DNA from: a virus
Virus record (IMG/VR): IMGVR_UViG_3300046467_002136
Span: 1-64,000 of that record
DNA: 64,000 nucleotides
Reading direction: 5' to 3' (one strand)
The position numbers and the translations under genes were made by a program. The notes below the pieces were generated by a model that was not told the DNA's origin, did not search any database, and saw only the letters and a program-made list of their open reading frames with translations. Numbering within the stretch: the stretch's first letter is position 1; each line of letters opens with the position of its first letter. Positions 10,301 to 27,772 of this stretch are shown piece after piece.

Positions 10301-11047
10301 TCAGTCGTCTTTCTCGACGATCTCGTCTTCGTCTTCAGGTGTGTTTTTAAGACGAACATATGGAGATGACTCTGGATTCACGGTCCTGTTGTTATGCGCG
10401 TCCCATTCGGATTGCTGACAGGTAATAAAAGTAGACATAATGAATTTGTCTGAAGAAATCGGCACTAAGCCAGAGTGTGGGTGAGTCCAATGAGTAGGAA
10501 ATATAGCTATTCGACCTGCTTTAGCGGATATCACTTGACCCTGTTCTTCGAAACGAGTACCTCCTCCGACTTCAATATCGTTGAGGTAAATGAGAACTCC
10601 AAGGACTCGTTGCGTTATGCCTCCTGAAGAATGGTACTCCCATGGCACACCGTCACAGTGCTCGCGATACCATCCTGCTCCTTGACCAGAATGCTGGACT
10701 CGAAACCCTGTGTCCGTTAAACCCGGAGCGTGCCATAATTGCCTGTAAATCTCTTGATATTTGGCCAGAATAAGACGTACTGCTAAATACGCTTTGCTAT
10801 GTAGCGTGGCAAAAATAGGTACTGTATCGAGATTGCGTGTCTTTAAATAATCTTGAGCAATGCCCGTGTCCATATTGCTCTTGACTAAAGGACGAAGTCC
10901 CCCCAAGGTTGGACCTGGCTCAAACATGCTTTCGTAATAACGTCTAAAAGCTTCTACAGCTTCGTCGCACACCGATTTTTCGATAGCGTTATCAAGAGTC
11001 ATTATGTAATTGTCTTTACCACCCGGAAGATCAAATGAAAAAGTCAT
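10301..11047 (-). CDS. Prolyl-4-hydroxylase-type 2OG-Fe(II) dioxygenase
   Basis: 248 residues. Iron ligands His130-x-Asp132 (WYREHCDG) and His191 (HPHSG), with Lys201 (SDKF) where prolyl-4-hydroxylases bind 2-oxoglutarate. The strand GVLIYLNDIEVGGGTRFEEQG and the AGRIAIFPTHW motif complete the double-stranded beta-helix signature. Such enzymes use O2 and 2-oxoglutarate to hydroxylate a prolyl or other substrate. It lies next to the halogenase (stop-to-start gap of one base) and close to Pro-rich fibre genes, so a virion-protein substrate is possible but unproven. Confidence 0.85.
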   Translation of the reverse strand: MTFSFDLPGGKDNYIMTLDNAIEKSVCDEAVEAFRRYYESMFEPGPTLGGLRPLVKSNMDTGIAQDYLKTRNLDTVPIFATLHSKAYLAVRLILAKYQEIYRQLWHAPGLTDTGFRVQHSGQGAGWYREHCDGVPWEYHSSGGITQRVLGVLIYLNDIEVGGGTRFEEQGQVISAKAGRIAIFPTHWTHPHSGLVPISSDKFIMSTFITCQQSEWDAHNNRTVNPESSPYVRLKNTPEDEDEIVEKDD

Positions 11048-11048
11048 T

Positions 11049-12584
11049 TCATTGTTCCAATCTTGGAATCAGTATTCCGCCGAAATCATCAAAATGCCAT
11101 TCAGCACGATTCTCTGCGTATTCCTTATGGGCACGTTTCAACACGGTTCGATGAGGAAGTTCCCGACCCGACTGTAAACGGTCATCTCTTATATCCATTA
11201 TTCTCTTTTGGCAGGAACCAGGAGAATCATTTGCTATAACTCCAGCCATGCATCCTTTGGCATTAATCAAACCTTGACCTTGTCCAACATGCCAAAAATG
11301 ACTAGATCTAAATAGTTCAAATCCAGTTAAGTCCAGATCGTGATCTTCTGGTCCCCTGTATTTAAACATTTCAATTAAAAAATTAAGCAATTCTGTCCTG
11401 TTCGCATTTTGCTGCTCTACCCACATTGGCGAATCGTTGCGATCAGTGACGTAATGCATGCCCACCATAGTCAAAAGGTTATCGAACATTGAATCAAAAA
11501 CCTTCAAGTACCCATGTTGTTGAACACCAGAATTGGGTTCATAGGTAGGCAGATAAGAACAAAGTAAGCGACATTGTTCAATGGTCGCTGCTATGGAGGT
11601 TGCCTCTAAGGGTTCAACGAAATTGGAAGCTAATCCAATAGCGACGCAATTGAATTGCCACGAATTCTGTACTTTGTATGGTCTGTATTTGATAGTTCGG
11701 ACATCTTTGACGGGTTCATCGATGTATTCTTCGACTTCTTTGATCGCATGTTCTTCATCAGTGTGACGCGAAGAGAATACATATCCGTGCCCACGACGTT
11801 CATAAGTAGGAATATCCCAATGCCAGCCTGCAGACAAAGCTTTAGCTTCGGTAAAAGGTTTTATTGAGTCGTTTCCGGGTGTTTGGAATACCAACGCCGT
11901 ATCGCAAGGAAGATAATCATCAAAAAAGGTTTGATGAGTGTTGTCAAGTTCCTTGAGAATTACTTGGTTGAACCCACTCGCATCAATAACAAAATCTGTT
12001 TTCACATCTCCCGTAGACGTGACTATGGTCGTAATATCACCAGAATCGGAATCCCTTTTTATCCCAATTACTGAAGCATCTATAAAATTAACGCCCTGTG
12101 TCAAAGCGTGTCCTCTTAAAAAGCCATTCAGTTTTGCACTGTCAAAATGAAATTGGTTTACTTGATTCCATGGCTGTTTCGTGTCCTGCACTTCATTATC
12201 AATTAATCCAGGATGAGCAAGTGTGGGTGTGAGTTGTCTGTCAGAGGCATGAATGTAACTATAAAGACCGTTGAAACTGCCTAGCCTCGTATACAGCCCC
12301 TCGCCAACGATGCTATGAAAATAGTCTGGCGTGTGGGTGGTCCAATCCAAAAATCGAATCCCATATTTGAAAGTAGCCATCGAAGCTTTGATTAGATCAG
12401 GGCGGTTTATTCCTACTCTTCCTTCGTAAGCAGCCCAATGTTCGGTACTACCTTCCCCTACTCCAATGGGAGGGATGTCACCTGAAGCGATAACGGTTAC
12501 GTCAAATTTGTGAAATGCGGCTTTGATTGTTGTTGCTGCGATTAAGCCTGCTTGCCCTGCCCCAACGATAGAAATACGTTTCAT
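11049..12584 (-). CDS. Flavin-dependent (tryptophan-type) halogenase
   Basis: 511 residues, the usual length for the family. GAGQAG at 8-13 is the FAD-binding glycine motif, followed by GVGEGST at 41-47. Lys73 (MATFKYGIRF) aligns with the catalytic lysine of PrnA, and Glu327 in FVEPLEATS with the active-site glutamate. WHWDIP at 254-259 is the WxWxIP motif that separates halogenases from monooxygenases. All key residues are intact, so activity is expected: halide oxidation by FADH2 and O2, then electrophilic halogenation. Relatives are known from marine cyanophages (VirX1). Substrate unknown. A flavin reductase is not visible here and would have to come from the host or from outside the window. 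Confidence 0.88.
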   Translation of the reverse strand: MKRISIVGAGQAGLIAATTIKAAFHKFDVTVIASGDIPPIGVGEGSTEHWAAYEGRVGINRPDLIKASMATFKYGIRFLDWTTHTPDYFHSIVGEGLYTRLGSFNGLYSYIHASDRQLTPTLAHPGLIDNEVQDTKQPWNQVNQFHFDSAKLNGFLRGHALTQGVNFIDASVIGIKRDSDSGDITTIVTSTGDVKTDFVIDASGFNQVILKELDNTHQTFFDDYLPCDTALVFQTPGNDSIKPFTEAKALSAGWHWDIPTYERRGHGYVFSSRHTDEEHAIKEVEEYIDEPVKDVRTIKYRPYKVQNSWQFNCVAIGLASNFVEPLEATSIAATIEQCRLLCSYLPTYEPNSGVQQHGYLKVFDSMFDNLLTMVGMHYVTDRNDSPMWVEQQNANRTELLNFLIEMFKYRGPEDHDLDLTGFELFRSSHFWHVGQGQGLINAKGCMAGVIANDSPGSCQKRIMDIRDDRLQSGRELPHRTVLKRAHKEYAENRAEWHFDDFGGILIPRLEQ

Positions 12585-12588
12585 AGAC

Positions 12589-13152
12589 TCAGCTCGGCCA
12601 CATGTATCTAAAAGTCAAAAACGCTTCTTTGTCAACTGGTTTTATTCGTAGATCCGTAGGAAATCCGCACGGCATAAGTACAACATCTCCCGCAGAAACA
12701 TCGAATTCGACATCATGTCGGTCCAATCTCATAACTACATCACTCAGAGCCATCGCTATAAGAGTTGTGACAAAATTGTTTTGTGGCCAAAGGGAGGCAG
12801 AAAAGTTATCTCCGTTACCTTTAAGCCACATCATATTAGTTCCGGTGTCTAGCTTGTAATTAATGCCGTACATTCGGGCATGACTATGTACACAGTCTTC
12901 GGTTATCTCGTTCATGTCCCAAAAAGCTTTTCGTATCTTGGCTAATTTAGGAATAGCAGATGAATGAACATTAGACATAGGAGAAAAACTGCTTGCACAG
13001 TGTTCTCCCTCGTATTTAACGCCGACATAAAAAGGCACATAAGACCAAGGTCGCTCGGCTTCCACCATGTAGCTTTCGATAAGATCACCAGCGTCATAAC
13101 CACAATGGAAAACTTCGACACCGGGAACTATTTCAGTAACTCCAGTAATCAT
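12589..13152 (-). CDS. Beta-helix protein, possibly degenerate 2OG oxygenase
   Basis: 187 residues. The C-terminal strand series FDVSAGDVVLMPCGFPTDLRIKPV..AFLTFRYM resembles the second half of a cupin or 2OG-oxygenase barrel, but I cannot find an HxD...H triad. It overlaps the upstream 2OG oxygenase gene by 4 bases (ATGA) and sits 4 bases before the halogenase start, so it is expressed with both. It might be a non-catalytic partner or bind a substrate. Confidence 0.4.
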   Translation of the reverse strand: MITGVTEIVPGVEVFHCGYDAGDLIESYMVEAERPWSYVPFYVGVKYEGEHCASSFSPMSNVHSSAIPKLAKIRKAFWDMNEITEDCVHSHARMYGINYKLDTGTNMMWLKGNGDNFSASLWPQNNFVTTLIAMALSDVVMRLDRHDVEFDVSAGDVVLMPCGFPTDLRIKPVDKEAFLTFRYMWPS

Positions 13153-13811
13153 ACGAAAAATCCCGCGAGGCTGTATTTAAGCTCTTGGCTGTTTAAACCG
13201 GTTGGTTCCGAGGCGTGAGAATAAACATACGAGGAAGGGAAAACAAGAATGTTCCCTTCTACCGATGGAACAGAAACATTTTGATAAGGAAAAACAGTAA
13301 CGCCACCGTCCTTGACCGTATTCAAATACACGATGCACGATATGATTCGGGGGTCATTGGTGCCGTGATCGGTATGAATTTTATATTGACCACCATGACC
13401 GTATTTGTTGATACTCCATGCCTGACAATCGTTAAGTTTTAAATCGTATATGCGTCGATAATCCCAAATAGCCCGTTCGGCTTCGTATAAAACTGGATAT
13501 GCAATTTTTTGGAGCTCCGTATAAGTGTCAGCAAAAGGGTCAGCTCCACCTAACATCGAGTCCAAGTCTTTGCCTCGACTGGTTCTGATGTTGCTTGCCT
13601 TTAGACCATCTCTTCGTGAACCAGTTTTTGATTGGTCCCAATCGGTTGACTCACCGTCTATTTCTATTCCTTCTATAAACTTTTGACCGTCGAACGAACC
13701 ACTGTAAACATGCATAAAAGGAGCAATCTCAACATGAGGAAAAGGATCGTTTTCTAAGGATTGGCGAGCGAGATGCGGGTTCGGTATCCCTTTAGGAAAC
13801 GTTGTTACCAT
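13149..13811 (-). CDS. 2OG-Fe(II) dioxygenase
   Basis: 220 residues. His146-x-Asp148 (YKIHTDHGT), distal His199 (VYSHASEP) and Lys212 (ELKYSLAGF) give a full set of iron and 2-oxoglutarate ligands. The strands IISCIVYLN and GNILVFPSSY fit the prolyl-hydroxylase-like branch. The N-terminal 100 residues are specific to this protein. The start overlaps the 140-residue gene upstream by 7 bases. Confidence 0.8.
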   Translation of the reverse strand: MVTTFPKGIPNPHLARQSLENDPFPHVEIAPFMHVYSGSFDGQKFIEGIEIDGESTDWDQSKTGSRRDGLKASNIRTSRGKDLDSMLGGADPFADTYTELQKIAYPVLYEAERAIWDYRRIYDLKLNDCQAWSINKYGHGGQYKIHTDHGTNDPRIISCIVYLNTVKDGGVTVFPYQNVSVPSVEGNILVFPSSYVYSHASEPTGLNSQELKYSLAGFFV

Positions 13812-14227
13812 GCCACTACTGAAATTTCTTCTACTGCGATCTCGCCATCGTCGTCAAAAACGCGGACGTGGTATCGTCCTGAACATGGAAAACGGATTCT
13901 CCAACCCTTGTAATGAGGGTCACCACCCAGTTGTGCTTCCATATGAGTTGTTCCCTGAGGACCGTCATAAGCTAAACGCACATTTTCTACTGTTGTGAAT
14001 TCATCTAAATAATTACAGGCAAGCGTTTCGTAAGGTTTGAGGTAAGCGCTAGATACCTTGAAATGCTGTTCAGTTGGAATAACCAACATTTGAGCTTTTT
14101 CTCTATCAAATTCAAATGGTTTAGTTAAATCACTTTCCCCCATCTGAACATGCACACCCCAAGGAGCAGCTAATTGTTCAGCTTCTTCTAGGTGATCTTC
14201 CGAAGGACAATAGCAAATCCGTTCCAT
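13805..14227 (-). CDS. Hypothetical protein with C-terminal beta domain
   Basis: 140 residues. The first 90 residues are mixed alpha/beta (AQMLVIPTEQHFKVSSAYLKPYETLA); the last 45 form a beta-sandwich-like stretch (GWRIRFPCSGRYHVRVFDDDGEIAVEEISVV) of the kind found in Ig-like virion proteins. No family recognised. It is the second gene of the minus-strand operon that begins at 14431. Confidence 0.45.
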   Translation of the reverse strand: MERICYCPSEDHLEEAEQLAAPWGVHVQMGESDLTKPFEFDREKAQMLVIPTEQHFKVSSAYLKPYETLACNYLDEFTTVENVRLAYDGPQGTTHMEAQLGGDPHYKGWRIRFPCSGRYHVRVFDDDGEIAVEEISVVAW

Positions 14228-14230
14228 TGT

Positions 14231-14431: not shown

Positions 14432-14509
14432 ACCTAGACCTTACCACGAGCGTGTAACTTACTGGTATCATGGAAACGTTACCTAGGACGACTCCCTGTG
14501 AGGCTATAA
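14432..14509 (+). promoter_or_regulatory. Divergent intergenic region
   Basis: 78 bases separate divergently transcribed operons, so promoters for both directions are expected here. I see no convincing -35/-10 pair. There is a weak inverted pair, GTAAC (14454-14458) and GTTAC (14478-14482), and a GTGAGG ribosome-binding site 7 bases before the plus-strand ATG. Confidence 0.35.
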
Positions 14510-14962: not shown

Positions 14963-15153
14963 GTCTCCCTCCTCAAACAATTATTGAAACAGATGGGGTG
15001 GCCTATCACGACGAAGCTCCCGGTACCAGAGACGACGATATTCGTGTTTGGAATTCAGCAAAAGCCCGAATGGAATGGGTATCTGATGGTGGTACCACCT
15101 ATTGCCCGGGATTTCGTAGAGAAAGATACGGAACCACCGAAGAGGCGTCATGA
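14959..15153 (+). CDS. Hypothetical 64-residue protein
   Basis: Short acidic then basic protein (DDDIRVWNSAKARMEWVSDGGTTYCPGFRRERYG). The VWNSAKARMEWV strand pair resembles the short 'WxxxxxxWxx' segments found in fibre-associated proteins, but this is weak. It overlaps both neighbours by 4 bases and sits in the same place relative to the next two genes as the 49-residue gene at 10116-10265. Confidence 0.45.
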   Translation: MSLPPQTIIETDGVAYHDEAPGTRDDDIRVWNSAKARMEWVSDGGTTYCPGFRRERYGTTEEAS

Positions 15154-15452
15154 GCGTTCGTAGCACTCCGGGGACACTTTATTCCAACGATGCGGAACTG
15201 TCGTTCGTAGAATCTGAGATTGCTCGGATTATGTACGCGGCTGGGCTCGATTGGGCTGACATCGATACGACAACCATTGATGACATCGTTGACAAGATCC
15301 GTGAGACTTTCACATACGGAACCGCCGTGGGTTCCGAAAGTGCAACGGTTTTAAACGCATCAGATGAGTGGCTTCTACTCCAACAAGAAGTGCTTATTAG
15401 CCCCCTGCGCCGTACTTGGCGTAGGCGTGCTCTCGCGACCGGGCGTGCGTAA
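15150..15452 (+). CDS. Hypothetical 100-residue protein
   Basis: Predicted helical, with TTTIDDIVDKIRETFTYG in the middle and a basic end (PLRRTWRRRALATGRA). It resembles the 90-residue gene at 9844-10116 in layout and position before a methyltransferase-like gene. The start overlaps the upstream stop by 4 bases and the stop overlaps the next ATG by one (TAATG). Confidence 0.5.
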   Translation: MSVRSTPGTLYSNDAELSFVESEIARIMYAAGLDWADIDTTTIDDIVDKIRETFTYGTAVGSESATVLNASDEWLLLQQEVLISPLRRTWRRRALATGRA

Positions 15453-16213
15453 TGGCTGAAAACCATTGGAGTAAAGCTCTTCGAGTCGCCCGCGACAGCT
15501 CTAATTTCGGATGGGAAGGAGCATTTTCCAACAGTGCGGCTATGAATGACTGGGCAACTGCTGTTGCTGCCGATTATGTCTCCCACAATCTAGACCAGCG
15601 AGATATCGCTGTCGGTGGCGAGTTTGAGATAGTCAAGATGGACATGTACAAGACCCCTGCGGAGAACTGGGAAAACGTCTTGTGGGGGGCCTACATGGTC
15701 ACGATCGTGCTTTCTCAGTTGATGGGCACAACCAATCCGAAAATGTTAATTGATAATCCTTTTCCAATTGTCCCATTGTTCGACATGTTGGAAGGCCCCA
15801 CACCACTCAGGGACTATACGGTCTTAAACACTTACAACCTGTATGACTGGGAGGAATTCGGACTTACTTTATCCGACGTAACAAATAATTATTCAGATAT
15901 ACAATATTCGGCACTGGATATGCAAGATCTTCTCGATGGGGAAGGAGCGGGCACATTCGACATGGTTCGTCTTGGACCGCAAACCCTGCACTCCATTAAC
16001 AACCGTGTGATTGACGCTGTCTTAGGTTTACTCAAGGTCGGGGGAGTACTCCACTTTACTAACACTAGTGGCTACCAAAGTTTGTATAACTTGGGAACAG
16101 CTCATCGCCATCCGTACACTCGTTTTAATCGACATATCGCGGCCCAGGCAAACTTTGACGTATATCATGTGCCTATGGAACAGGGAATGATTATTGCCAA
16201 ACGGCTGTCGTAG
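15452..16213 (+). CDS. Methyltransferase-like protein (paralogue of the 9149-9844 product)
   Basis: 253 residues. The C-terminal third, FDMVRLGPQTLHS..VIDAVLGLLKVGGVLHFTNTSGYQ, is the motif IV-VI region of a class I methyltransferase fold; motif I is not evident. The N-terminal half, with FEIVKMDMYKTPAENWENVLWGAYM, is mixed alpha/beta. The lack of a glycine-rich SAM loop suggests a divergent or non-catalytic member. It is followed after 11 bases by four consecutive 2OG-oxygenase genes. Confidence 0.45.
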   Translation: MAENHWSKALRVARDSSNFGWEGAFSNSAAMNDWATAVAADYVSHNLDQRDIAVGGEFEIVKMDMYKTPAENWENVLWGAYMVTIVLSQLMGTTNPKMLIDNPFPIVPLFDMLEGPTPLRDYTVLNTYNLYDWEEFGLTLSDVTNNYSDIQYSALDMQDLLDGEGAGTFDMVRLGPQTLHSINNRVIDAVLGLLKVGGVLHFTNTSGYQSLYNLGTAHRHPYTRFNRHIAAQANFDVYHVPMEQGMIIAKRLS

Positions 16214-16224
16214 ATAGAAACACA

Positions 16225-17256
16225 ATGATTGAATATCCGGAACCTAACCAGCCGCCGCACATTCAGCCAAAATTGAGTGACGCAGACATTCCAGACATTG
16301 CCTCACTCGACTTTGACGCATACCCAAGCGGTGTAGTTCATTTCAAAAAAATTATCGATGTAGACACCGACCTAATCCTTCCCTACGTCAAAAAAGAAGC
16401 TCAACCATCCAACTGTGGACTTAAATGGATGGAAGACGGTGACGAAAAATGGGCAGAAGATTTTCAAGGCAACAAACATGACATCAGCTTGTTACTTGAA
16501 CAGCCAGCCCGTTTAGGTGGACTGGGTGAAAACGAACCCGTTATGGAACACACCCCAGAAGAAATAATCAAGTTCTTCAACAAATGTGAACAAGCGTTTT
16601 ATAAATGCTTAATTCGCTACATAGATCTCTACCCCATGATGCTTAATACAATCTGGTGGAGAATGAGGGGCCACGTTTTGTATTACAAGCCTGGGGGCTT
16701 GATCGGACTACACAACGACAACGACACCAACTTCAGGGTTGTTGACGGACTTCGTTATCAAACCGCAAGAAATATTGCGATCTACCAAGTTCTAAACGGG
16801 ATGATTGACATTAGCGAAAGCTATGAGGGCGGTGAATTCGTTTTCCCACACTCAGATTGTGTAATCAAAACAGAAACCGGTGATGCTGTCTTTTTCCCAG
16901 CCAATTATCTAGGGGCACACGGAGTTAAAAAGGTCGAATCAGGAGAACGGTTTTCATATCTAACACAATTCGGACAAGGCAAAGAAGACGAATTTAGGAT
17001 ATTGGAAGCTACAGAAAGCCACAGCTGGTTGCCGCCCGCGTACATGCCGTGGATTTTCCAAGACTACGAACGCTACTTCAAATCTGAATATTCGGATTCC
17101 GGAACCCAATGGCGTGGTGCTCGACAAGGTGGCAGTCCAACCATGCTTCCATGTCCAGACGGGTCTCTAGAGGCTATTCGAACATCCAACCCCTGTTCCC
17201 AGAACCGACCGCTTGAAGGTGACCCTGAGGGCGTGTATCAGCCCTATGATGCATGA
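16225..17256 (+). CDS. 2OG-Fe(II) dioxygenase (WWxxxGH subfamily)
   Basis: 343 residues, the largest of a paralogous set. It carries WWRMRGHVLYY, then His163-x-Asp165 (GLHNDND), YEGGEFVFP, and GDAVFFPANYLGAH with distal His232 and Arg242. All ligands are present. The C-terminal 90 residues (SWLPPAYMPWIF...) are an extension with a Ser/Cys-rich end. The stop lies inside the first codons of the next paralogue, so the two are translationally coupled. Confidence 0.82.
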   Translation: MIEYPEPNQPPHIQPKLSDADIPDIASLDFDAYPSGVVHFKKIIDVDTDLILPYVKKEAQPSNCGLKWMEDGDEKWAEDFQGNKHDISLLLEQPARLGGLGENEPVMEHTPEEIIKFFNKCEQAFYKCLIRYIDLYPMMLNTIWWRMRGHVLYYKPGGLIGLHNDNDTNFRVVDGLRYQTARNIAIYQVLNGMIDISESYEGGEFVFPHSDCVIKTETGDAVFFPANYLGAHGVKKVESGERFSYLTQFGQGKEDEFRILEATESHSWLPPAYMPWIFQDYERYFKSEYSDSGTQWRGARQGGSPTMLPCPDGSLEAIRTSNPCSQNRPLEGDPEGVYQPYDA

Positions 17257-18112
17257 AATGGAACACTACGCCAACGGCATTTCGATACAACGGGCCGCTA
17301 TTAAAACTCCTACACATGTTGTAGAGCAGCTTCTGGATCTACGCGACCAACAACTTCACGACCAGTATGAATTTGATGGCGATATTGCGATACATAGAGA
17401 TAGTGGTATCCATTATCTTTTAGAGAAGGATATTCTCCAACAACCCGTTCGCGTTCACCCACACGGACACGATGGAATGGAAGCCGTCGATACACAGTTT
17501 TGGAAGGACTGTGATCGTCTCTGTTATGGCGCGGTGCTCGAATATATTAAGAAATATCCAACCATTATTGCTTCCCTGTGGTGGAGAAACCGTGGTCATG
17601 TTCTGATTTATGAACCCGGAGCTTTTTTGGGTTTACATCAAGACCAAGATGTTGGTTACACTTGGAGCAATCGCGATAATGTTGTTGGAAAATACGAAAT
17701 CTCAACTCGTAATACAATTAGCACTACCATGCATATCGTCGATTCCGACGGCGGTGAAATGCATTTCCCTTACGCCGACCTGACTGTTGAAGCGTGCGAA
17801 GGCGATATTCTGATCTTTCCTGCTAACTATGTAGCTGCTCATGAGGTCACCCCCATCAAAGAGGGTAGTAGGCGGATCTCTTATCTGGCTTGGTTCGGAC
17901 AGGGTTCGACTGAACCGCTAGTTCAACCAAATGGGCCACTAGATATCGTTGAGCCCGTAGGGGACAGGGTCGACCCGTTTATGTGGTGTCCAACCATCGC
18001 CGACGATTTCATTAATGCTTCGGGTTGGACCGACGATGAGATGAAGTTCAAATATCCTGCATGGCGCAGGGAATCTGTACCGAATTACCACATCAATAAA
18101 AAGGGCGAATGA
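17246..18112 (+). CDS. 2OG-Fe(II) dioxygenase (WWxxxGH subfamily)
   Basis: 288 residues from the ATG at 17246; in-frame ATGs at 17249 and 17258 are alternatives. The longer TTG start at 17213 lies deeper in the upstream gene and is not preferred. WWRNRGHVLIY is followed by His131-x-Asp133 (GLHQDQD), GDILIFPANYVAAH with His199, and GSRRISYLAWFGQG supplying the 2-oxoglutarate arginine. It is the second of three plus-strand genes of this subfamily. The next gene starts at the base after its stop. Confidence 0.8.
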   Translation: MMHEMEHYANGISIQRAAIKTPTHVVEQLLDLRDQQLHDQYEFDGDIAIHRDSGIHYLLEKDILQQPVRVHPHGHDGMEAVDTQFWKDCDRLCYGAVLEYIKKYPTIIASLWWRNRGHVLIYEPGAFLGLHQDQDVGYTWSNRDNVVGKYEISTRNTISTTMHIVDSDGGEMHFPYADLTVEACEGDILIFPANYVAAHEVTPIKEGSRRISYLAWFGQGSTEPLVQPNGPLDIVEPVGDRVDPFMWCPTIADDFINASGWTDDEMKFKYPAWRRESVPNYHINKKGE

Positions 18113-20155: not shown

Positions 20156-20796
20156 ATTCTTTCTCCCCATCCTTCGGGCACATCGTTATTTTTAGCTGAC
20201 TCTTCTTTAAATTCTCTAGCTTGCACTCCCGGAGGTAAGACAATCGGGACAAGAGAACTTAGCGGGTCATTGAAGAATAGGTCCGATACGGATCGCGCAT
20301 CGTCTCCACTGAGCCACATGAAGCGTCTCAGATCACCCATCTCGTGTGACATGGGGTACCCATAGATACCGCACTCAACGTAGCTGTTGAGCAAGGTGGC
20401 GTTTTCTCGAAAGTCCTCCCAGTTGGTCGGGTGAACCCAATTGCAGTCAACATAAATACCTGAAAAGTCAGCTGCTATGGCAGCATCCATCGTTGGATAT
20501 GACTCGGCTCTGGGATAAATGCCTTCTTCTGTGACCATCGTTTGCTTTTCTTCATCCCACACGGCGCTTTCTCCGATGATGACACCACCAAACTGAGAGA
20601 CAGAAAACACAACATCTGCTTCTTCGAATACTCGATTTAGAGTTTCGACTTCTTTCGTTCCTACCAAACGAGCTCGTTCTTGGGTTAATTCGGAACGACT
20701 CTTTGTGGCTGACAACACGTTGTGACCGGCTCGAAGTAACGCATCAGCGATGGTGGCTCCCATTGCCCCTGTGTGGAGTATTCCTATTGTTGCCAT
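20152..20796 (-). CDS. NAD(P)-binding beta-hydroxyacid-dehydrogenase-like protein, short
   Basis: 214 residues. The N-terminus IGILHTGAMGATIADALLRAGHNV is the GxxGxMG Rossmann motif of the 6-phosphogluconate / 3-hydroxyisobutyrate dehydrogenase superfamily, followed by ADVVFSVSQFGGV. The protein is about 80 residues shorter than the family norm and seems to lack the usual C-terminal helical domain, so it may be a single-domain reductase. It is encoded between two oxygenase-type genes and overlaps both. Confidence 0.65.
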   Translation of the reverse strand: MATIGILHTGAMGATIADALLRAGHNVLSATKSRSELTQERARLVGTKEVETLNRVFEEADVVFSVSQFGGVIIGESAVWDEEKQTMVTEEGIYPRAESYPTMDAAIAADFSGIYVDCNWVHPTNWEDFRENATLLNSYVECGIYGYPMSHEMGDLRRFMWLSGDDARSVSDLFFNDPLSSLVPIVLPPGVQAREFKEESAKNNDVPEGWGERI

Positions 20797-21389
20797 AGGT
20801 CGTCACTCATCACGCCTTGGCGTGTTTCTCGTTGTATCGCCGTGCCTGTGGGCTCATAGGGGTAGAGGTTACCAGCTATAGAGACACGGTCTCTGTCAGG
20901 GAATTGTCTTGTTGTCATGTGTTGGTAATAGGCCCCAAAGATGACCAGTAGACCCGGACGAAGCGAGATGCTTTCAAGCTTTTCGAGACGATTGCAGTAC
21001 ATGATGTGAATCACCATGTCAGCATCGTCCTCCTCGCCCAAGGGGTAGTAGCAGAAGGAAAAGTGTTCTTCTGGATTCAACCAAGTATTCGACCAGTGGG
21101 AATGGGCCATGACGGACTGCCCGGGTCCTGTATACACACCCCAAATGGCGTCTATGTAATACGGTCGGCCTAACAACTCGCAGGCAGCACTTGTGATCTG
21201 CTGCCGCAAATCCATCGTGATGCTCCCAGTTGGTAAGTCGAAGTCCTTATGCGGCTCATGTTTTTCAACAACAAAATCATGAATAGCTTTAGCATTACGG
21301 CTGTCCAACTCACATGTCCAATAGCCAATATCAACAATTGAATGCCGTTGGGCATTTCGTATCGGCGAGGGTCGCTCTCTATCTTGCAT
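20784..21389 (-). CDS. Putative 2OG-Fe(II) oxygenase, HxH type
   Basis: 201 residues from the ATG at 21389; a longer start at 21455 would overlap the upstream gene by 77 bases. The core GPGQSVMAHSHWSNTWLNPEEHFSFCYYPL, then LRPGLLVIFGAYYQHMTTRQF and Arg168, fits the 'putative 2OG-Fe(II) oxygenase' family (PF13759-like), in which HxH (His96, His98) replaces HxD. Distal His157. Metal binding is plausible, but activity is less certain than for its HxD neighbours. Confidence 0.6.
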   Translation of the reverse strand: MQDRERPSPIRNAQRHSIVDIGYWTCELDSRNAKAIHDFVVEKHEPHKDFDLPTGSITMDLRQQITSAACELLGRPYYIDAIWGVYTGPGQSVMAHSHWSNTWLNPEEHFSFCYYPLGEEDDADMVIHIMYCNRLEKLESISLRPGLLVIFGAYYQHMTTRQFPDRDRVSIAGNLYPYEPTGTAIQRETRQGVMSDDLWQQ

Positions 21390-22197
21390 CGGGGAGTTTG
21401 TAACCTTCTGGCATATAGATATTTGTTGTTGTGTCTGCCATTTCCGGGTGTTCAAGTGGATCTATAACAGACTCGTTAAATTTGCCGTTTGGCGTTCCGT
21501 GACAGTACCACCCTACATGCGAATACCTTGACCCTCCGGAAACCTCAGAAACAGAATGCGCCGCCATGTAATTTGCAGGGAATAAAATAATGTCGCCCTT
21601 GCTTGGCTTGTATTCAATATCTAAGTATTCCCACGACACCAGTCCCCCCGTGAAATTGGTTCCGTCTAGCTCTGTTTCGGTCTCGACATGATCGTTGAGG
21701 AATGCCAATGTAGACACTACGGTGCGTGTGGCTATCTGATCTGAGGGGTGTGGCGAACCGTACTCATAGTCTGTGCTTTGGTCGGAATGTAGACCCAAGT
21801 AACAGGTTTCGGGATAGACCAGGATGTGTCCTTTAATTTTCCACCAGATGCAGTTGCCTGCCAGCGGGAATTTGTGGAGGTAGTACCACAGGCATAAGTC
21901 TCTAGCGTCTTCAAGAGCCGTCAAAGCTTCTTTGGCTTTTGGGTTCATGTCTCTGTGGACATAGGCGCAGTGCCTAGGCATGCTCCATACGGATGCCGAG
22001 GGGAAGAAATATCCGTTCCGGTTTATGTACCCATCTTCACCACTAATGGGGTCTTTGCCCGGTGTATACATGTCGGCAATTTCTTTTTCCGCCGACTCTT
22101 GAGAAAATTCTCGAATAAAGTCCCAGTCGAGCTCCACCGCGTTCCGATAGAGAATAACGCCACTACCGAGTTCTTCACCGTCCAAGTTCATGTTCAT
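21379..22197 (-). CDS. 2OG-Fe(II) dioxygenase (WWxxxGH subfamily)
   Basis: 272 residues. WWKIKGHILVY, His137-x-Asp139 (GLHSDQS), a long insert before the GGLVSWEYLDIEY strand, GDIILFPANYMAAH with His214, and Arg224 (GSRYSHVGWYCHGTP). All ligands present. Closest in pattern to the plus-strand trio at 16225-18889. It overlaps the upstream TauD-type gene by 23 bases. Confidence 0.8.
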   Translation of the reverse strand: MNMNLDGEELGSGVILYRNAVELDWDFIREFSQESAEKEIADMYTPGKDPISGEDGYINRNGYFFPSASVWSMPRHCAYVHRDMNPKAKEALTALEDARDLCLWYYLHKFPLAGNCIWWKIKGHILVYPETCYLGLHSDQSTDYEYGSPHPSDQIATRTVVSTLAFLNDHVETETELDGTNFTGGLVSWEYLDIEYKPSKGDIILFPANYMAAHSVSEVSGGSRYSHVGWYCHGTPNGKFNESVIDPLEHPEMADTTTNIYMPEGYKLPDAR

Positions 22198-23935
22198 CCA
22201 TCTCTAACATGATGGTCAGAAAGTCTCGGATGTCCCCAACGATCTCTTTGCGTTCTTCGTTTGTTTTTAGATGATTGAAACATCCGAATACGGTATCGAC
22301 AGCAAATTGGACTAAAAAATCTTTAGGAGGTTGTCCTCCATTTTCTTCGAAGTGGCCCGTATACGAAATGAAGGGTAAATTCTCCCACCTGTATGGTCGT
22401 TCTTTATGGCTTGGGTAATGCATAAAGTCCGGATAGTGCCAAGCATGACCAGCGTGTCGGAGATCTCGACGAGCTTCAGTCATGGCGACGATTTGATTTA
22501 CGCAGTTGCTAAATAATGGATCGTCTACTGATTTGTATGCTCGGGAAATGTCTCCGTTTTTCGTAAACATAAAGATTTGACCCATTGGATCTACTCCGGG
22601 ATTCCAATATGGAGCATATTTAGAACAGAGAATATGGTTCTGGTCAAAAGGAATTTTCACAACATGAAAATCTGGGTATGGGAGCTGATCACACTCAGCC
22701 CAGTTAGATCCTTGAATTTGTTCCCATAAAGTTGTTATCTGATCTGGAATGTTCGAATATTCATCTTTAACAATAAAAAATATTGTTACGGAGTTGACTA
22801 AATGTTTGAATTCAGGAAGGGCGTAAATCCCTTTAGTGAGCACCAAGGGAATATGATCCGGATTCGCTACGGCGCTTGCCCAATCATCTTTTACGGGTCC
22901 GTCGTTTTCGCTACTGAACTTTTTACTAACTGTTAAGCGTTCATCTTTTGGTGGATTACCAACCTTTGGAGGAGGCTCAACTATCTCTGTGAACTTACTG
23001 GGGTCGTAATATGGTTTATCTATCCCCACTTCATAACGAGTAAAGACCCTTTCCTCAAATTGGAATTCAGGACTAAAGGCATGGATGAGGTTTCTGTTAT
23101 CCCAAATAAACAGATCTCCCACATCCCAAGACCATCTGAATCGAAGATCTTCACGTTGGAGCCCGTTCAGCATCCATGCTTTTATCTCTTCCCATGGTTC
23201 AGTTGTTCCACCCACGGGGTTGCACTCTGTTGGATTAAACCAAAACGAGGTTTTCCCAGTAGCGGGGTGGGTTCTCAAAGCTGGAAATGTTACTGATTTC
23301 CCATAATGAGGGGAAGTCAACTCGTGTTCTCCGTGGTTTGCTTCTGGATCAGCTCCCAACGAATGAACTACTTGAAGATCCTTCAAATACTCTCTCATAT
23401 GTTCAGGCATAATTTCATAGAGATATTCCAAACTGGCGACCAGCGTGTCGTCATTACCGACAGCCTCTGTTCGTACATCCATCCGCATACTCTGAAGAGC
23501 AGGTGGGGACTCATGAAAAGGATTATCTACATGCCAATTGCCCCTAATGAAAGCTTCGGAAGATTCGAAGTCATTCAATGGGTGTTGTTCTACCATCCAC
23601 GAATGATCAACATTTAGGATATTTCCTTGCGACGGTGGGTCGTCGTCATCTCCCCTGTAAACAGAATTAACTATTGCTATTTGCTCTTCAACCGTGGGAT
23701 GCAAATACTTAAAACCAATAGCTTGATGTTTGGTGAATAGGTCAGCATAAAAATCAGAGTCATCAAGTATCTCTTGGGGGGTCACCCCTTGGATTCTCAA
23801 ACCCAATCGACCGAGATGTAGTCCTGACGCCACTCCGGTACCACTTGGGGAATCATTCCCATCTCCCCGTTCACGCGGTTTGTCAGCTTCGGCCATCGTC
23901 GTATCGTACCGCTGACCTTCAGGCAGGTTCGACAT
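22175..23935 (-). CDS. TauD/TfdA-type dioxygenase with unusual C-terminal extension
   Basis: 586 residues from the ATG at 23935, chosen over the 24031 start, which would overlap the upstream gene by 113 bases. Residues 40-310 are TauD-like: His135-x-Asp137 (NWHVDNPFH), THPATGKTSFWFNP, WDNRNLIHAFSP with distal His285, and a paired arginine RVFTR. The last 270 residues form a second, unrecognised domain (VTIFFIVKDEYSNIPDQITTLW...HAGHAWHYPDFMHYP), rich in His and aromatic residues. Ordinary TauD proteins are about 280 residues, so this is a fusion roughly twice the usual length. Confidence 0.78.
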   Translation of the reverse strand: MSNLPEGQRYDTTMAEADKPRERGDGNDSPSGTGVASGLHLGRLGLRIQGVTPQEILDDSDFYADLFTKHQAIGFKYLHPTVEEQIAIVNSVYRGDDDDPPSQGNILNVDHSWMVEQHPLNDFESSEAFIRGNWHVDNPFHESPPALQSMRMDVRTEAVGNDDTLVASLEYLYEIMPEHMREYLKDLQVVHSLGADPEANHGEHELTSPHYGKSVTFPALRTHPATGKTSFWFNPTECNPVGGTTEPWEEIKAWMLNGLQREDLRFRWSWDVGDLFIWDNRNLIHAFSPEFQFEERVFTRYEVGIDKPYYDPSKFTEIVEPPPKVGNPPKDERLTVSKKFSSENDGPVKDDWASAVANPDHIPLVLTKGIYALPEFKHLVNSVTIFFIVKDEYSNIPDQITTLWEQIQGSNWAECDQLPYPDFHVVKIPFDQNHILCSKYAPYWNPGVDPMGQIFMFTKNGDISRAYKSVDDPLFSNCVNQIVAMTEARRDLRHAGHAWHYPDFMHYPSHKERPYRWENLPFISYTGHFEENGGQPPKDFLVQFAVDTVFGCFNHLKTNEERKEIVGDIRDFLTIMLEMDEHELGR

Positions 23936-24932
23936 CAGTTCTCGTTTCCCATGTTGATTCAACCGATTGGTCTGGGACATCGAGTACTTGATGTCCTTCA
24001 TACTTCGGGCCGATGCGATCATCGTGTTCATTCAAACCTGTACGCAAGCTACCCATCCATGTCCATGGATTGTCGAGCATGTTTTGGTCTTTGGCGGCTC
24101 CATACGCTATTCGTGAATCCAACTGTGCTTGGTCCTCCCAAGCGTTGCCAACATTAAACTGGACTTCAGATAGCGCATCATCCTTCACGAAGGTGAACCA
24201 CATGTAGGGCATCCCTTTAGGGAAGGTGATAATTGAATTTAGTTTGGTGACTTTCCAGTTCATCGCAAATGGATCTGGCCACCAGCCGGGGATCATGGCA
24301 GACAGCGGAACAACGCCATCCATAAAGAAGTTTGGTGGACCGGAAATGAAAGTGCTGTATCCCTCAGGAGGATTGAATATCCAATCCACGGCAATAGACA
24401 GAATGCCAACGATTGATGGCATAGCTAAATCCCGCTCATAGCCACTTTCTACAGGTTCTGGTTCCGGCATATCGGAGATCTCAGGTATCTCCGGATGCTG
24501 TAGTTCTGGCATTTCATATTCGGGATCAACCCAATCCTCTGGAGGCTGTCCAGCCCAACGACGAGGAGGGATCGGAGGAGGAACCTCCATCACAACCTCT
24601 ATCCATGAAAACGTTTCCTCATCCCAAGTATAAAAATTGCCGTCATCCGGATATGGGGGCATTACGGGCACGGCTGCGACTTCTGAAGGTTTTTGAGTTG
24701 CTACACACTGTCTCGTTAGTCCACTAAGTACCGTAGGGACACTTCTGTCGTCATACTGTATAAAAGACACCTCTTCAGGGAGAATCACTTCCCAACCAAG
24801 AGTGTTAGCAACCGTTAACGGCAAACACTTGTAAGCATGTTTTTTATAGCTCTCGTCCATCCAATCCCGCCGAGGACGTGATTGACGAATTTCGGGAGGC
24901 TGATGGTGTACGCGAGTAAGTCCTACCTCCAT
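23919..24932 (-). CDS. DUF6065-like protein
   Basis: 337 residues. YKCLPLTVANTLGWEVILPEE near the start and GILSIAVDWIFNPPEGYSTFISGPPNFFMDGVVPL..MNWKVTKLNSIITFPKGMPYMWF in the second half match my memory of DUF6065. A Pro/Glu-rich insert (about residues 125-160, PPIPPRRWAGQPPEDW, PEIPEISDMPEPEP) separates the halves. Function unknown. It shares the pattern with the gene at 8255-9130 but has both conserved blocks more fully. Start and stop overlap both neighbours. Confidence 0.55.
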   Translation of the reverse strand: MEVGLTRVHHQPPEIRQSRPRRDWMDESYKKHAYKCLPLTVANTLGWEVILPEEVSFIQYDDRSVPTVLSGLTRQCVATQKPSEVAAVPVMPPYPDDGNFYTWDEETFSWIEVVMEVPPPIPPRRWAGQPPEDWVDPEYEMPELQHPEIPEISDMPEPEPVESGYERDLAMPSIVGILSIAVDWIFNPPEGYSTFISGPPNFFMDGVVPLSAMIPGWWPDPFAMNWKVTKLNSIITFPKGMPYMWFTFVKDDALSEVQFNVGNAWEDQAQLDSRIAYGAAKDQNMLDNPWTWMGSLRTGLNEHDDRIGPKYEGHQVLDVPDQSVESTWETRTDVEPA

Positions 24933-25420
24933 GTCTCTCCCTTGAGCTTCTTGCCATCAATTTGCTTTAAATTGACAGTTCCAGAACCGAGGGCAACCAA
25001 CCGACCTTTGTTTTCGATACGGGTTGTAACAACGGCAGCACTCTTGCTCAGAGATTCAATCGTTGAATAGGCGTCACAGATACCACCCTCGACGCTCTTT
25101 AAGTAGTTGATACTGAGATTGGAGGTCGCTACCCAAGTACCGGCAGGAACAAAAGGATAAACAACTAATGGCATAGCCGTATCAACAAGAGAAGCCAAGC
25201 AGGCACCGTGTAGCTGTCCGGTAAACATCAAGTGCTGATCTTTGACGAGGAAAGCGCAATGGCACACGCCACGCACATCATCGATTTCTACAATCGCAAC
25301 TTCAAGCCAAGCAGCGACTCCAGCGGAGAACCCGTTTTCCCCAAACTTGGTTCCAACCATGTTTTCAATGAATTCGGGATGTTTAACTTCAAGCTGCAGA
25401 TGCTGACTCAATTTGCCCAC
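24923..25420 (-). CDS. PaaI-type hotdog thioesterase
   Basis: 165 residues from a GTG at 25420. GQLHGACLASLVDTAM (68-83) is the hotdog-fold thioesterase signature (HGG-x-hydrophobic...D variant), followed by TSNLSINYLKSV and the typical strand AAVVTTRIENKGRLVALGSGTV. It is predicted to hydrolyse an acyl-CoA or acyl-carrier thioester. The long (32-base) overlap with the upstream gene means an internal start, such as the TTG at 25411, is possible. Unusual in a phage. Confidence 0.75.
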   Translation of the reverse strand: MGKLSQHLQLEVKHPEFIENMVGTKFGENGFSAGVAAWLEVAIVEIDDVRGVCHCAFLVKDQHLMFTGQLHGACLASLVDTAMPLVVYPFVPAGTWVATSNLSINYLKSVEGGICDAYSTIESLSKSAAVVTTRIENKGRLVALGSGTVNLKQIDGKKLKGETWR

Positions 25421-26105
25421 CTAAAGTATGTGCCGAATCTGACTCGCTTGAAAGATTAGTACCACGAGCCATTCCGGGCTGTTGGTGATTTCTATCGTTG
25501 TAGTCGTACATCGTGACTGCTGAGTACTTTAGCTTGTCTCCGATTATTGGTAACGACTTGTGAACGTAAGGGTAGTTGGACGGAAACACCATGAGGTCTC
25601 CCGCTTCAGGAGTGAACTTGATATCCATGTTGGGCAAGACCAGCTCTCCTCCCTCGTAACCGTCGTTTAGCCAACCAATCGTTGATGTCACAGCGCAGTA
25701 CGAGAAGCCGTGGTCGGGGTGCAGTTCAAAATGCTGACCTTCCGCATACTTCACAAAGTTTGTGGCTTCTTCAAACTCAAGATTGATGCCGTAATGCGGG
25801 CTGTAGTGGCTATGGACCGCCTGCCTCACAGGCTCGATATATTCTGTGTACACCGCACCCAAGTCTTCAAAACCGGGAGCTGTGACAGGCAGGGCCATTT
25901 CTGCCATTTTGAAGTCACTACAATCCCGGTAGTCAAGCATTTGATCCATGTCTCCGACAGTGGCTCCCTTCCATGAAAAGAACTCGTGTTCGCTGCCGTC
26001 TAAGGCCGCTTCGAGTCGTTCAATGAGGTTTGCCGGATCAGGCCAGACATTCTTGTATAAGATGATGGCCATAGCGGGATGGCCGCAGAAGCCTGCGATT
26101 TCCAT
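25389..26105 (-). CDS. 2OG-Fe(II) dioxygenase, prolyl-hydroxylase-like
   Basis: 238 residues. His129-x-Asp131 (FELHPDHG), STIGWLNDGYEGGELVLP, AGDLMVFPSNYPYVH with His182, and Lys193 (KLKYSAVTMYDYN), which suits the Lys-type 2-oxoglutarate contact of prolyl-4-hydroxylases. N-terminal half helical. The start shares one base with the upstream stop (TAATG). Confidence 0.8.
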   Translation of the reverse strand: MEIAGFCGHPAMAIILYKNVWPDPANLIERLEAALDGSEHEFFSWKGATVGDMDQMLDYRDCSDFKMAEMALPVTAPGFEDLGAVYTEYIEPVRQAVHSHYSPHYGINLEFEEATNFVKYAEGQHFELHPDHGFSYCAVTSTIGWLNDGYEGGELVLPNMDIKFTPEAGDLMVFPSNYPYVHKSLPIIGDKLKYSAVTMYDYNDRNHQQPGMARGTNLSSESDSAHTLGGQIESASAA

Positions 26106-26755
26106 TAATTCGCTCCTAAGTCTGTAATTGTAGTGAAAGCTGGACTAGTCCACCTTACCCCGGAAGTTATTTCTTTGACTCCGTGTAGATAGTGGATATC
26201 GCCCGGATGGGCAACTGCCATACCGGCTTCAATTTCTAAACAAATGTCGTGATCTTGGTAGTAGAACTGTCCACCCTCGAAATTGTCATTCCAGTAGATA
26301 ATTGAATTGATGTCATAACTAGGAAATGGATTAGGGGTTCCGTCGTTGAGTTGTTTATCCGAATGTGGGCTTTGAAGGTTGCCGGGCAGCCATCTAACAA
26401 TTACAGGTGGTCTCATGTAAACCTTGTAATTGAACTTTTTTTCGATGAGATACTTGAGTTTCATGTTGTATTTGTCAACAAGGTCATGCAATTCGAGGTA
26501 ATTGTCTCTAAGAATCCCGGTATTGCAGACCCGATCCCACCAATAAGAGGCGTCGTAAATGCAAGTGCCCTCATCGTTGAAGATATCCGGACTTGGATTA
26601 TGCCACTCGGTGATGTTCTCTACCAGAAATTGAACTCGTGTGAGGTCAGATGTCTCGACAAGGTCTTTCACGACGATAATGTGATCAGTAGAGTTACCGA
26701 AATGTCCGGGCTCTATCAGAGACGAGTCTAAATCAACGTCCTGATCCGGGTCCAT
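26105..26755 (-). CDS. 2OG-Fe(II) dioxygenase
   Basis: 216 residues. VRWLPGNLQSPHSDKQ gives His131-x-Asp133; NSIIYWNDNFEGGQFYY, then AGMAVAHPGDIHYLHGV with distal His191 and Arg201 (GVRWTSPAF). This is a P4H-like catalytic domain with a 100-residue helical N-terminal part. Thirty bases separate it from the glutathione-peroxidase-like gene upstream. Confidence 0.78.
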   Translation of the reverse strand: MDPDQDVDLDSSLIEPGHFGNSTDHIIVVKDLVETSDLTRVQFLVENITEWHNPSPDIFNDEGTCIYDASYWWDRVCNTGILRDNYLELHDLVDKYNMKLKYLIEKKFNYKVYMRPPVIVRWLPGNLQSPHSDKQLNDGTPNPFPSYDINSIIYWNDNFEGGQFYYQDHDICLEIEAGMAVAHPGDIHYLHGVKEITSGVRWTSPAFTTITDLGAN

Positions 26756-26785
26756 GATTGCAGCCTACCAGAATCAGGTTGTTGT

Positions 26786-27772
26786 CTATACCCCTTTGCC
26801 AACCTGAAATTTGTCTCCGTACTCCAAATGGTCAGCTTGGACCGATTCAGTTGGTAGTGTCCACTGTTGTTCTGGAGAATCGCCATCTTCTGTGGGTTCT
26901 CCGAGCAAATCGTCGATATGAGCACAGAGGATTGCTAGAGATTCTGTAATACCTCGTCTTTGCAGGGCATTGGGGTACACGCTGTTCCCAAATCCATCTA
27001 GACCAAGGGCTTCACGGACCTCACGGCGTATTTGCCCATCTTCTTGCCAACTACCTGGGGGAACAACAACTTCTTCTGTGTGTCCTTCTATAAACCACGG
27101 AAATACTTCCCCTTTGGGATCTCGTTCCCCGAGTAGGAATCCGTTGGCATAGCGCGTGAAGCTCTGTCCGTCTCGACTAACGAGGAATTTCTCAAAATTC
27201 CCTTGCAGCCCGGAAAATCCCGGCTTGCTGTCATCCACTATTTGTGGAGGGTCTGCCCAAGGGCTTGCTTCTTTGTGGTGCGGTAAATTGTTTTCGTCTC
27301 GTTCCAAATGAGCGCAATCCACCATGTGTTGCCAAAATGGGTCCATTTCTTGCTGGTGTTGTGCTCCGGGTTGCCATTTGGGATCGTAAACGTGTTTGTC
27401 GAATCTCCCATTAGTTAGTTCGGAAAACTGGAAGTCAACTCCATAGTTGTTTTTAGCGTACTTCTCAGCTACTTGACTGGCATTCAGATCTTTGTATTCG
27501 CCAGTTTTTTCATTTTCAGCGAAGGCTTCTAAGCCGTCATTGAATTCACCGTAACCATGACAGGTGAAATCGTCTACGACGATAGCCCTGATCTGAAAGT
27601 CATCCTCGTCTTTATAGTGCTCATCTAATGCTTTGAGCGCGATCATCTGAGGGTAGTTGCCACAACCCGCAGCAATATTAAAAACAAGAGTGACTTTCCC
27701 TTTGCAGTCATCCAGAATGTCCGGATTTTCTCCATCTGCTGACGCAATTTTGAAGTCATATGCGCTACCCAT
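26786..27772 (-). CDS. Glutathione-peroxidase-like protein with C-terminal extension
   Basis: 328 residues. CKGKVTLVFNIAAGCGNYPQ places Cys37 at the peroxidatic Cys/Sec position of glutathione peroxidases, and VVDDFTCHGYGEF (Cys71) matches the FPCNQF region. GNFEKFLVSRDGQSFTRY near residue 195 matches WNFxKF, with Gly replacing Trp. The conserved Gln is also missing, so the catalytic tetrad is incomplete. The insert and C-terminal 100 residues are not part of the normal 160-residue family. Probable thiol peroxidase or redox protein; it might protect or recycle factors for the oxygenases (inference). Located 2 bases after the FPP-repeat fibre gene. Confidence 0.7.
   Translation of the reverse strand: MGSAYDFKIASADGENPDILDDCKGKVTLVFNIAAGCGNYPQMIALKALDEHYKDEDDFQIRAIVVDDFTCHGYGEFNDGLEAFAENEKTGEYKDLNASQVAEKYAKNNYGVDFQFSELTNGRFDKHVYDPKWQPGAQHQQEMDPFWQHMVDCAHLERDENNLPHHKEASPWADPPQIVDDSKPGFSGLQGNFEKFLVSRDGQSFTRYANGFLLGERDPKGEVFPWFIEGHTEEVVVPPGSWQEDGQIRREVREALGLDGFGNSVYPNALQRRGITESLAILCAHIDDLLGEPTEDGDSPEQQWTLPTESVQADHLEYGDKFQVGKGV

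Follow-up and report, generated by a model that had tools for sequence, protein, structure and literature searches.

A block of oxygenase genes in an uncultured tailed phage and its probable link to an aromatic-Phe-Pro-Pro repeat on a fibre-type protein

What might a tailed phage modify with a battery of Fe(II)/2-oxoglutarate (2OG) oxygenases? The question is raised by positions 10,301 to 27,772 of the IMG/VR record IMGVR_UViG_3300046467_002136. The window analyzed here comprises the first 64 kb (64,000 nucleotides) of this 114,037-base uncultured virus record. The virus is myovirus-like, with a tail sheath (49778-51268) and a terminase (61585-62892) in the window and portal and major head protein genes further along. 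In the following, genes are named by their first coordinate, G-numbers denote related virus records, and L-numbers denote loci. An earlier note on this DNA regarded fibres or surface proteins as the likeliest substrates of the block. This proposal is supported, and two-way co-occurrence and co-loss now point to a particular target, an array of aromatic-Phe-Pro-Pro (FPP) units on a fibre-type protein. Judged from sequence comparison and modelling, the block is probably a fibre-linked modification island that hydroxylates this fibre-tip array of the phage's own tail-fibre adhesin.

The array gene is located just beyond the block, between a long fibre gene and the enzymes:

27775-28335, minus strand: array protein and proposed substrate, with a PASTA-like N-terminal domain, 25 units of [F/H/Y]FPP and a C-terminal GFKG
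28339-33666, minus strand: long, repeat-rich tail-fibre-like protein of 1775 residues (phrog_30390 match), directly upstream of the array gene

The array gene is kept beside the cluster in G033, G034 and G035, and in G024 and G022 the array is carried by an fn3 protein. In G033, an orthologue of the long fibre gene adjoins the array gene; G022 and G024 have similar fibres near the cluster. The 25 units of the window array are encoded by 15 distinct DNA units. Changes between adjacent units amount to 29 synonymous versus 9 nonsynonymous, and the amino-acid changes are confined to the first residue of the unit. Because the codons vary and the peptide remains constant, the array is maintained by selection on the protein and not by recent DNA slippage alone. 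Among 21 distinct arrays ending in xFK, all 343 of 343 units are of the form [F/Y/H/W]-F-P-P (first position F in 193, Y in 109, H in 34 and W in 7), rather than a collagen-type Gly-X-Y repeat; three units per match were all that the search pattern prescribed. Other array proteins reach about 1,100 residues and include fn3, Hint-like and endosialidase-chaperone (S74) domains, which are typical of fibres and spikes. With fibre-type domains (fn3, PASTA, S74, Hint), the array proteins lack the short precursor, leader and cleaved core of ribosomally synthesized and post-translationally modified peptides, and no leader protease was identified in the island by Pfam.

The ends of the arrays show further regularities. 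A conserved xFK at the stop codon (here GFKG) terminates most regular arrays across divergent phages, for example in 27775-28335 and at L118, L140, L146, L165, L171 and L176. At L123, L154, L173, L186, L192, L196 and L142, a Cys-initial Hint/intein-like domain directly follows the FPP array (e.g., FGCINEDTLILTSEGYKMAKDIKIGD), and at L160 an S74 endosialidase chaperone takes this position. Autocleavage may leave the array as the C-terminal end of the mature protein.

The part of the block nearest to the array encodes the core enzymes and their partners:

26786-27772, minus strand: glutathione-peroxidase-like (GPx-like) protein with an invariant peroxidatic-type Cys37 (Pfam GSHPx 7.5e-7; Cys37 in 12 homologues)
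26105-26755, minus strand: core 2OG oxygenase, nearest to prolyl 3-/4-hydroxylases (H131, D133, H191 and R201 invariant in 28 sequences)
25389-26105, minus strand: core 2OG oxygenase, prolyl-4-hydroxylase-like (PF13640; H129, D131, H182 and K193 invariant in 25 sequences)
24923-25420, minus strand: hotdog (4HBT) thioesterase (Pfam 4.4e-9; kept in G033-G035)
23919-24932, minus strand: DUF6065 protein, core partner (Pfam 1.1e-34; weak dUTPase/beta-clip-like fold)

Both core oxygenases possess the 2OG-binding Arg or Lys after the distal His (K193 in 25389, R201 in 26105). Although 26105 has no Pfam match, its PHROG matches, its hhalign alignment to 25389 (98.8%) and its match to prolyl 3-hydroxylase 1 (2.5e-8) place it in the 2OG superfamily. 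By sequence, the nearest solved relatives of the pair are bacterial prolyl 4-hydroxylase (P4H), collagen lysyl hydroxylase LH3 and prolyl 3-hydroxylase 1. The AlphaFold2 model of 25389, the one protein modelled, has a predicted local distance difference test score of 87 and matches 2OG enzymes, consistent with a double-stranded beta-helix fold. Its best match in the PDB is 3gze, an algal P4H holding (Ser-Pro)5, followed by EF-Tu P4H, PHD2 and the chlorella-virus collagen P4H. Consequently, peptidyl-prolyl hydroxylases are the closest relatives by sequence and fold, a statement that applies to 25389 and 26105 only. The fold search with DUF6065 returned weak dUTPase/beta-clip similarity (TM score 0.2 by query). 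Across loci, the constant parts are the 25389 and 26105 pair, DUF6065 and often the GPx-like protein, homologues of which occur in 52 of 78 DUF6065 loci.

The enzymes most likely modify the FPP repeat because the block and the array co-occur across many uncultured viruses. IMG/VR viral contigs were scanned for DNA encoding three consecutive [F/H/Y/L]FPP units, without the use of the oxygenases. The scan is a sample of listed matches, from which 80 array loci were taken. Hidden Markov models of each cluster gene were run on these loci and on 80 control loci from related phages, picked by sheath similarity and sharing common ancestry with the window; the contigs are fragments and the sampled loci are partly redundant. 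The 706 kb of array loci contain 211 2OG matches, as opposed to one in 951 kb of control loci. The linkage is directional: among listed arrays with enough flank, a 2OG gene occurs within 3 kb downstream in 30 of 41 and upstream in 1 of 34. When the listed array proteins are collapsed at 70% identity, the corresponding values are 19 of 29 and 1 of 28 (Fisher p = 6e-7). Of the 17 contigs tested in which local evidence was weak, 14 contain the Pfam family 2OG-FeII_Oxy_3 (PF13640, cut-off 27 bits) at some position, and the cluster accompanies 13 of the 14 listed arrays with an xFK terminus.

The reverse scan leads to the same picture. The array was found in 29 of 33 DUF6065 loci with both flanks and in 27 of 28 loci of 26105 homologues. 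Wherever it is seen at a DUF6065 locus, it is upstream on the same strand (54/54), and homologues of 25389 precede DUF6065 in 27 of 27 loci, always on the array strand. Eight of 36 related records carry the array; DUF6065 occurs in seven of these, the eighth contig ending at the array, and in none of the 28 array-less records. PF13640 was detected in all 40 further contigs chosen via array, DUF6065 or 26105 loci. The DNA pattern of the array was also sought in 85,000 bacterial and archaeal genomes, where it matched 44 stretches, nearly all of them short chance matches. Genuine arrays are limited to three metagenome-assembled genomes, with core genes adjacent in each; these contigs probably stem from phages and were placed in bacterial bins. 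The array is found on differing N-terminal domains (fn3, PASTA and others) and in several sheath lineages, and its linkage to the cluster holds at about 20% DUF6065 identity.

The composition of the cluster varies among relatives, whose accessory genes include fatty-acid desaturase, AurF-like, radical SAM and glycosyltransferase genes. Pairs of proteins with a HIPKTSG motif (sulfotransferase-like by eye, no Pfam match) are encoded at L104:13085-14603, with homologues at L140, L146, L159, L164, L177 and L181. Such pairs stand beside arrays in about a tenth of listed array loci and in none of the controls. The PF11397 GlcNAc transferase was considered as a clue to hydroxyproline glycosylation and dropped, as it occurs in 1 of the 80 listed array loci.

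Comparison of close relatives reveals how the block is built. G033, G034 and G035 keep the entire block in gene-by-gene synteny; in related phages, the genes thus form a block beside fibre genes and are not scattered. The sheath of G022 and G024 is about 55% identical, and the array, of the same kind, forms the end of an fn3-type protein, next to a cluster that is rearranged but retains the core. G036 keeps the halogenase side intact but has other genes at the site of the array gene and lacks DUF6065 and most of the enzymes on the array side; of 21379 and 19463, only fragments that lack the HxD motif survive there. Because the halogenase side occurs without the array (G023, with halogenase, 13149-like and 8255-like genes) and the array without the halogenase (G022 and G024), the block probably consists of two modules, A on the array side (15150-27772) and B on the halogenase side (5714-14227). 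The earlier idea of a dedicated modification system is supported, although the system probably consists of two modules.

A possible course of events can be outlined from these data. The substrate would be the C-terminal Ar-Phe-Pro-Pro tetrad array of 27775-28335 and of its analogues with fn3, PASTA, Hint and S74 domains. The core pair, 25389 and 26105, would hydroxylate residues of the array, most likely prolines, and the other 2OG enzymes may perform further regio- or residue-specific oxidations, for example at Phe, His or Tyr positions. DUF6065 would act as an obligatory partner, perhaps in substrate handling, and the GPx-like protein could guard against peroxide. Decoration of the product may fall to the methyltransferase-like protein, joined in relatives by sulfotransferase-like proteins or glycosyltransferases. 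The modified array would alter the binding of the fibre tip to the host surface. The halogenase, 13149, 12589 and 10301 would make up the second module, which is separable and probably has another fibre protein as its target. Extended beyond the window, the proposal is more tentative: it is possible, at somewhat less than even confidence, that diverse uncultured tailed phages use a dedicated pathway for dense multi-position oxidation of the Ar-Phe-Pro-Pro fibre-tip array, on Pro and aromatic residues, with sulfation, methylation or glycosylation in some cases.

Other explanations have to be considered. The product of the cluster could be a small molecule, lipid or glycan, made or tailored by its enzymes and then joined to the fibre or presented along with it, with the array as a carrier or docking platform rather than the target of oxidation. 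The thioesterase, TauD, halogenase, methyltransferase-like and oxidoreductase genes would suit this idea, as would the desaturase, AurF-like, radical SAM and glycosyltransferase genes of relatives. However, no scaffold-making enzyme was found, the accessory genes occur rarely, in contrast to the constant 2OG pair, DUF6065 and GPx-like protein, and likeness to prolyl hydroxylases suits a Pro-Pro repeat; small-molecule tailoring is therefore considered unlikely. Auxiliary metabolism, in which host metabolites are the substrates of the oxygenases, or 2-oxoglutarate is lowered, and host nitrogen or energy metabolism is thereby reprogrammed, is the published hypothesis for cyanophage 2OG genes (PMC3037559, PMC9602691), and the block does contain a TauD-type member. 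From such a role one would not expect a fibre-type array gene to be linked strictly and in one direction to the enzymes, to co-occur with them in both search directions or to be lost together with them, and the core enzymes resemble protein hydroxylases; auxiliary metabolism is therefore very unlikely. Neutral hitch-hiking, that is, a 2OG-rich hypervariable region that happens to lie beside a distal fibre gene in one phage lineage without a functional connection, draws on the fact that array contigs are fragments of uncultured tailed phages with largely inherited gene order, and 2OG genes are found beside fibre genes in cyanophage S-SCSM1, too. Against it stand the varied N-terminal domains and several sheath lineages that carry the array, the survival of the linkage at the DUF6065 divergence given above, and the loss of the enzymes together with the array in G036. 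This explanation is highly improbable.

Several points weigh against hydroxylation of the array as the function of the block. The likeness of the core enzymes to P4H in fold and sequence does not fix the substrate; the fold matches of 25389 also include PasI and PolD, which act on small molecules, and TauD enzymes usually act on small molecules. About a quarter of the listed arrays with enough flank have no 2OG gene inside 3 kb, and the persistent linkage could partly reflect the descent of one block. DUF6065 was found in no isolate (0 of 50,697 phage records), and a virion location of the array protein is suggested by its domains and position. Nevertheless, where a set of protein hydroxylases is so firmly tied to a fibre protein with a Pro-Pro repeat, the simplest interpretation is a pathway that hydroxylates this repeat.

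The remaining genes of module A include most of the oxygenases:

22175-24031, minus strand: TauD-type 2OG dioxygenase with an extra C-terminal region (Pfam TauD 6.2e-26; dioxygenase structures 1.5e-17)
21379-22197, minus strand: 2OG oxygenase, 'WW' subfamily (PF13640 1.7e-9; HxD/H invariant in 6)
20784-21455, minus strand: 2OG-like protein in which HxH replaces HxD; the start codon is uncertain (PF13759 weak; phrog_81 5.8e-14)
20152-20796, minus strand: NADP/F420-type oxidoreductase domain protein (Pfam F420_oxidored 9e-7)
19463-20170, minus strand: 2OG oxygenase, 'WW' subfamily (PF13640 1.3e-9; orthologue alignment)
18886-19470, plus strand: 2OG oxygenase, variable member (PF13640 2.3e-11; diverged in G035, absent from G033 and G034)
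18113-18889, plus strand: 2OG oxygenase, 'WW' subfamily (PF13640 25.6 bits; HxD/H invariant in 6)
17246-18112, plus strand: 2OG oxygenase, 'WW' subfamily (PF13640 2.3e-7; orthologue alignment)
16225-17256, plus strand: 2OG oxygenase, 'WW' subfamily (PF13640 3.5e-7; orthologue alignment)
15452-16213, plus strand: methyltransferase-like protein related to 9149-9844 (Methyltransf_3 0.013, below cut-off; hhalign to 9149 91.9%)
15150-15452, plus strand: small conserved module protein (kept in G033-G035)

All genes named earlier are present at their coordinates. The eleven intact HxD...H enzymes that had been read in the block, together with 36615 and 56932, are confirmed by Pfam, PHROG, hhalign, PDB profiles and invariant motifs, so that most members are indeed 2OG oxygenases. 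The inventory was right about the oxygenases but omitted the halogenase, DUF6065, the hotdog thioesterase, the GPx-like and methyltransferase-like proteins and the adjacent FPP-array protein. PF13640 exceeds its cut-off in 10301, 13149, 16225, 17246, 18886, 19463, 21379 and 25389. The proteins 18113 (25.6) and 56932 (25.7) fall slightly under it in the per-gene search and above it in the genome search. In orthologue alignments, which comprise 25 to 28 sequences for 25389 and 26105 and as few as 2-3 for some other enzymes, HxD and the distal H are invariant for all 13 enzymes. For 36615, the sole profile support is a PHROG match (3.8e-17) labelled 'ferrochelatase', a label also borne by 2OG-like cyanophage proteins; 3 orthologues retain its HxD and the distal H. 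Because hhalign of 36615 against the cluster enzymes returned nothing, its place in the superfamily follows from PHROG and the motif only and is the weakest case. A phmmer search of 21379 against the PDB also returned nothing.

The HxH relative (20784) and the degenerate relative (12589) were likewise recognized correctly. In 20784, HxH, the distal H (H179) and the Arg (R190) are invariant in 7 sequences; since seven orthologues, some of them distant, keep HxH, the motif is a conserved variant rather than a sign of decay. In 12589, a degenerate 2OG fold is recognized by hhalign to 13149 (97.9%), and there is no invariant His in 5 orthologues. The 114-kb record contains nine PF13640 matches, eight of them inside the block and none in 64-114 kb. 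Because eight of nine fall in the block, the density of oxygenases is not due to chance. Two local differences among relatives were also observed. At L099, an open reading frame that is SET-domain-like by eye (G034:20424-20816, minus strand) occupies the position expected for the C-terminal region of TauD protein 22175, and the TauD reading frame of G034 is shorter (474 aa). At L100, an additional TauD-like gene (G035:7048-7977) is inserted between the orthologues of 20784 and 20152.

Module B and its flanks comprise the following genes:

13805-14227, minus strand: small conserved protein (kept in G033-G036, weaker in G023)
13149-13811, minus strand: 2OG oxygenase (PF13640 7.2e-12; orthologue alignment)
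12589-13152, minus strand: degenerate 2OG-fold paralogue of 13149, catalytic residues lost
11049-12584, minus strand: FAD-dependent (tryptophan-type) halogenase (Pfam 6.3e-91; PDB halogenases 2.6e-48)
10301-11047, minus strand: 2OG oxygenase (PF13640 1.4e-7; orthologue alignment)
9149-9844, minus strand: methyltransferase-like protein (hhalign to 15452)
8255-9130, minus strand: protein weakly related to DUF6065 (hhalign 67%, E 5e-5; in G023 with halogenase and 13149 homologue)
5714-7860, minus strand: two Gly-rich structural proteins flanking the module (5714-7135, with a hypervariable Pro/His/Gly insert, and 7135-7860)

The halogenase 11049 has the FAD-binding domain, the catalytic Lys and the WxWxIP motif, and its alignment with 6frl keeps FK(Y)GIRFLDW and WHWDIP. 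A tblastn search of the phage collection returned matches of about 30% identity only, mostly in cyanophages, and a scan of viral contigs recovered the already known relative alone. By hhalign, 9844 and 15150 show no detectable kinship. The insert repeats of 5714-7135 vary, being GDPP/HTGNPP here, GGNVNP in G036 and His-rich in G034 and G023. Due to this hypervariable composition between relatives, no claim is made for 5714-7135 as a module B substrate. Elsewhere in the window, 54688-55815 encodes a PAPS-reductase-family protein (phrog_2302, 1.5e-76) next to a ParB-like gene. In G082, the record of L375, the tail sheath match at 92545-94008 contains two in-frame TAA codons.

The array-linked system appears to be undescribed in the literature searched and would be a kind of protein modification new to phages. 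That literature, with subscription papers and preprints outside the search, contains no mention of DUF6065 and nothing relevant for FFPP and phage. The block has no DNA similarity match in the phage collection, and there 25389 finds only distant partial matches (27%) and DUF6065 none; a homologous, conserved cluster was thus not found in cyanophage isolates. 2OG oxygenases are common and functionally unexplained in aquatic phages, where they are usually filed as host-metabolism genes. The candidate substrate was found by linkage alone, and the function of phage 2OG enzymes therefore becomes testable with one peptide assay.

Among known systems, T4-like cyanophages are alike in having many divergent PF13640/PF13759 enzymes per genome, some beside tail-fibre genes, and a prnA-type halogenase. 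The published role of their 2OG genes is in host metabolism, with no substrate named, and the cyanophage and pelagiphage regions examined have no FPP array. The earlier statement that phages often carry one or two such genes understates the range, which is 1-5 in many cyanophages (PMC3037559) and reaches 24 in S-SCSM1, where a metabolic role was proposed (PMC9602691); for this reason, gene count was rejected as a mark of novelty. In the scanned parts of S-SCSM1 (1-100 kb and 180-229 kb), there are no PP arrays. At 210680-219702 of this isolated cyanophage (MK867354), for which virion mass spectrometry exists, seven 2OG genes flank tail-fibre genes. The flavin halogenases VirX1 and cyanophage PrnA resemble 11049 (2.8e-33 and about 30% identity, respectively), which, unlike them, belongs to a separable module with two 2OG enzymes and one degenerate relative.

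Viral protein hydroxylation has a precedent in vCPH of chlorella virus PBCV-1 (PDB 5c5t), a virus-encoded P4H fold among the closest structural matches to 25389. In contrast to the island, it is a single enzyme of a eukaryotic virus with a collagen-type substrate and comes with neither an enzyme battery nor an Ar-F-P-P array. The chemistry proposed here would be a variant of viral protein hydroxylation, now in bacteriophages and with an undescribed repeat. The algal P4H 3gze, the best structural match, binds a Ser-Pro repeat and not an aromatic-Phe-Pro-Pro one, and in plant extensins and arabinogalactan proteins P4H acts on a polyproline-like repeat of eukaryotic cell-wall proteins. In phage virion glycosylation, enzymes encoded near tail genes modify the phage's own tail proteins, but by glycosylation instead of oxidation and without a repeat array. 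Mussel foot proteins contain aromatic and Pro-rich repeats that are hydroxylated at several positions for adhesion; this is an animal system, and the likeness is by analogy only. If the proposal is true, phages build receptor-binding tips by oxygen-dependent protein maturation, DUF6065 is given a context, and enzymes for hydroxylating designed repeat proteins could be drawn from a new source. On the broader, more tentative proposal, the pathway would be the equivalent in bacteriophages of the maturation of collagen, extensin or mussel adhesives, and phages would have a new way of binding their hosts.

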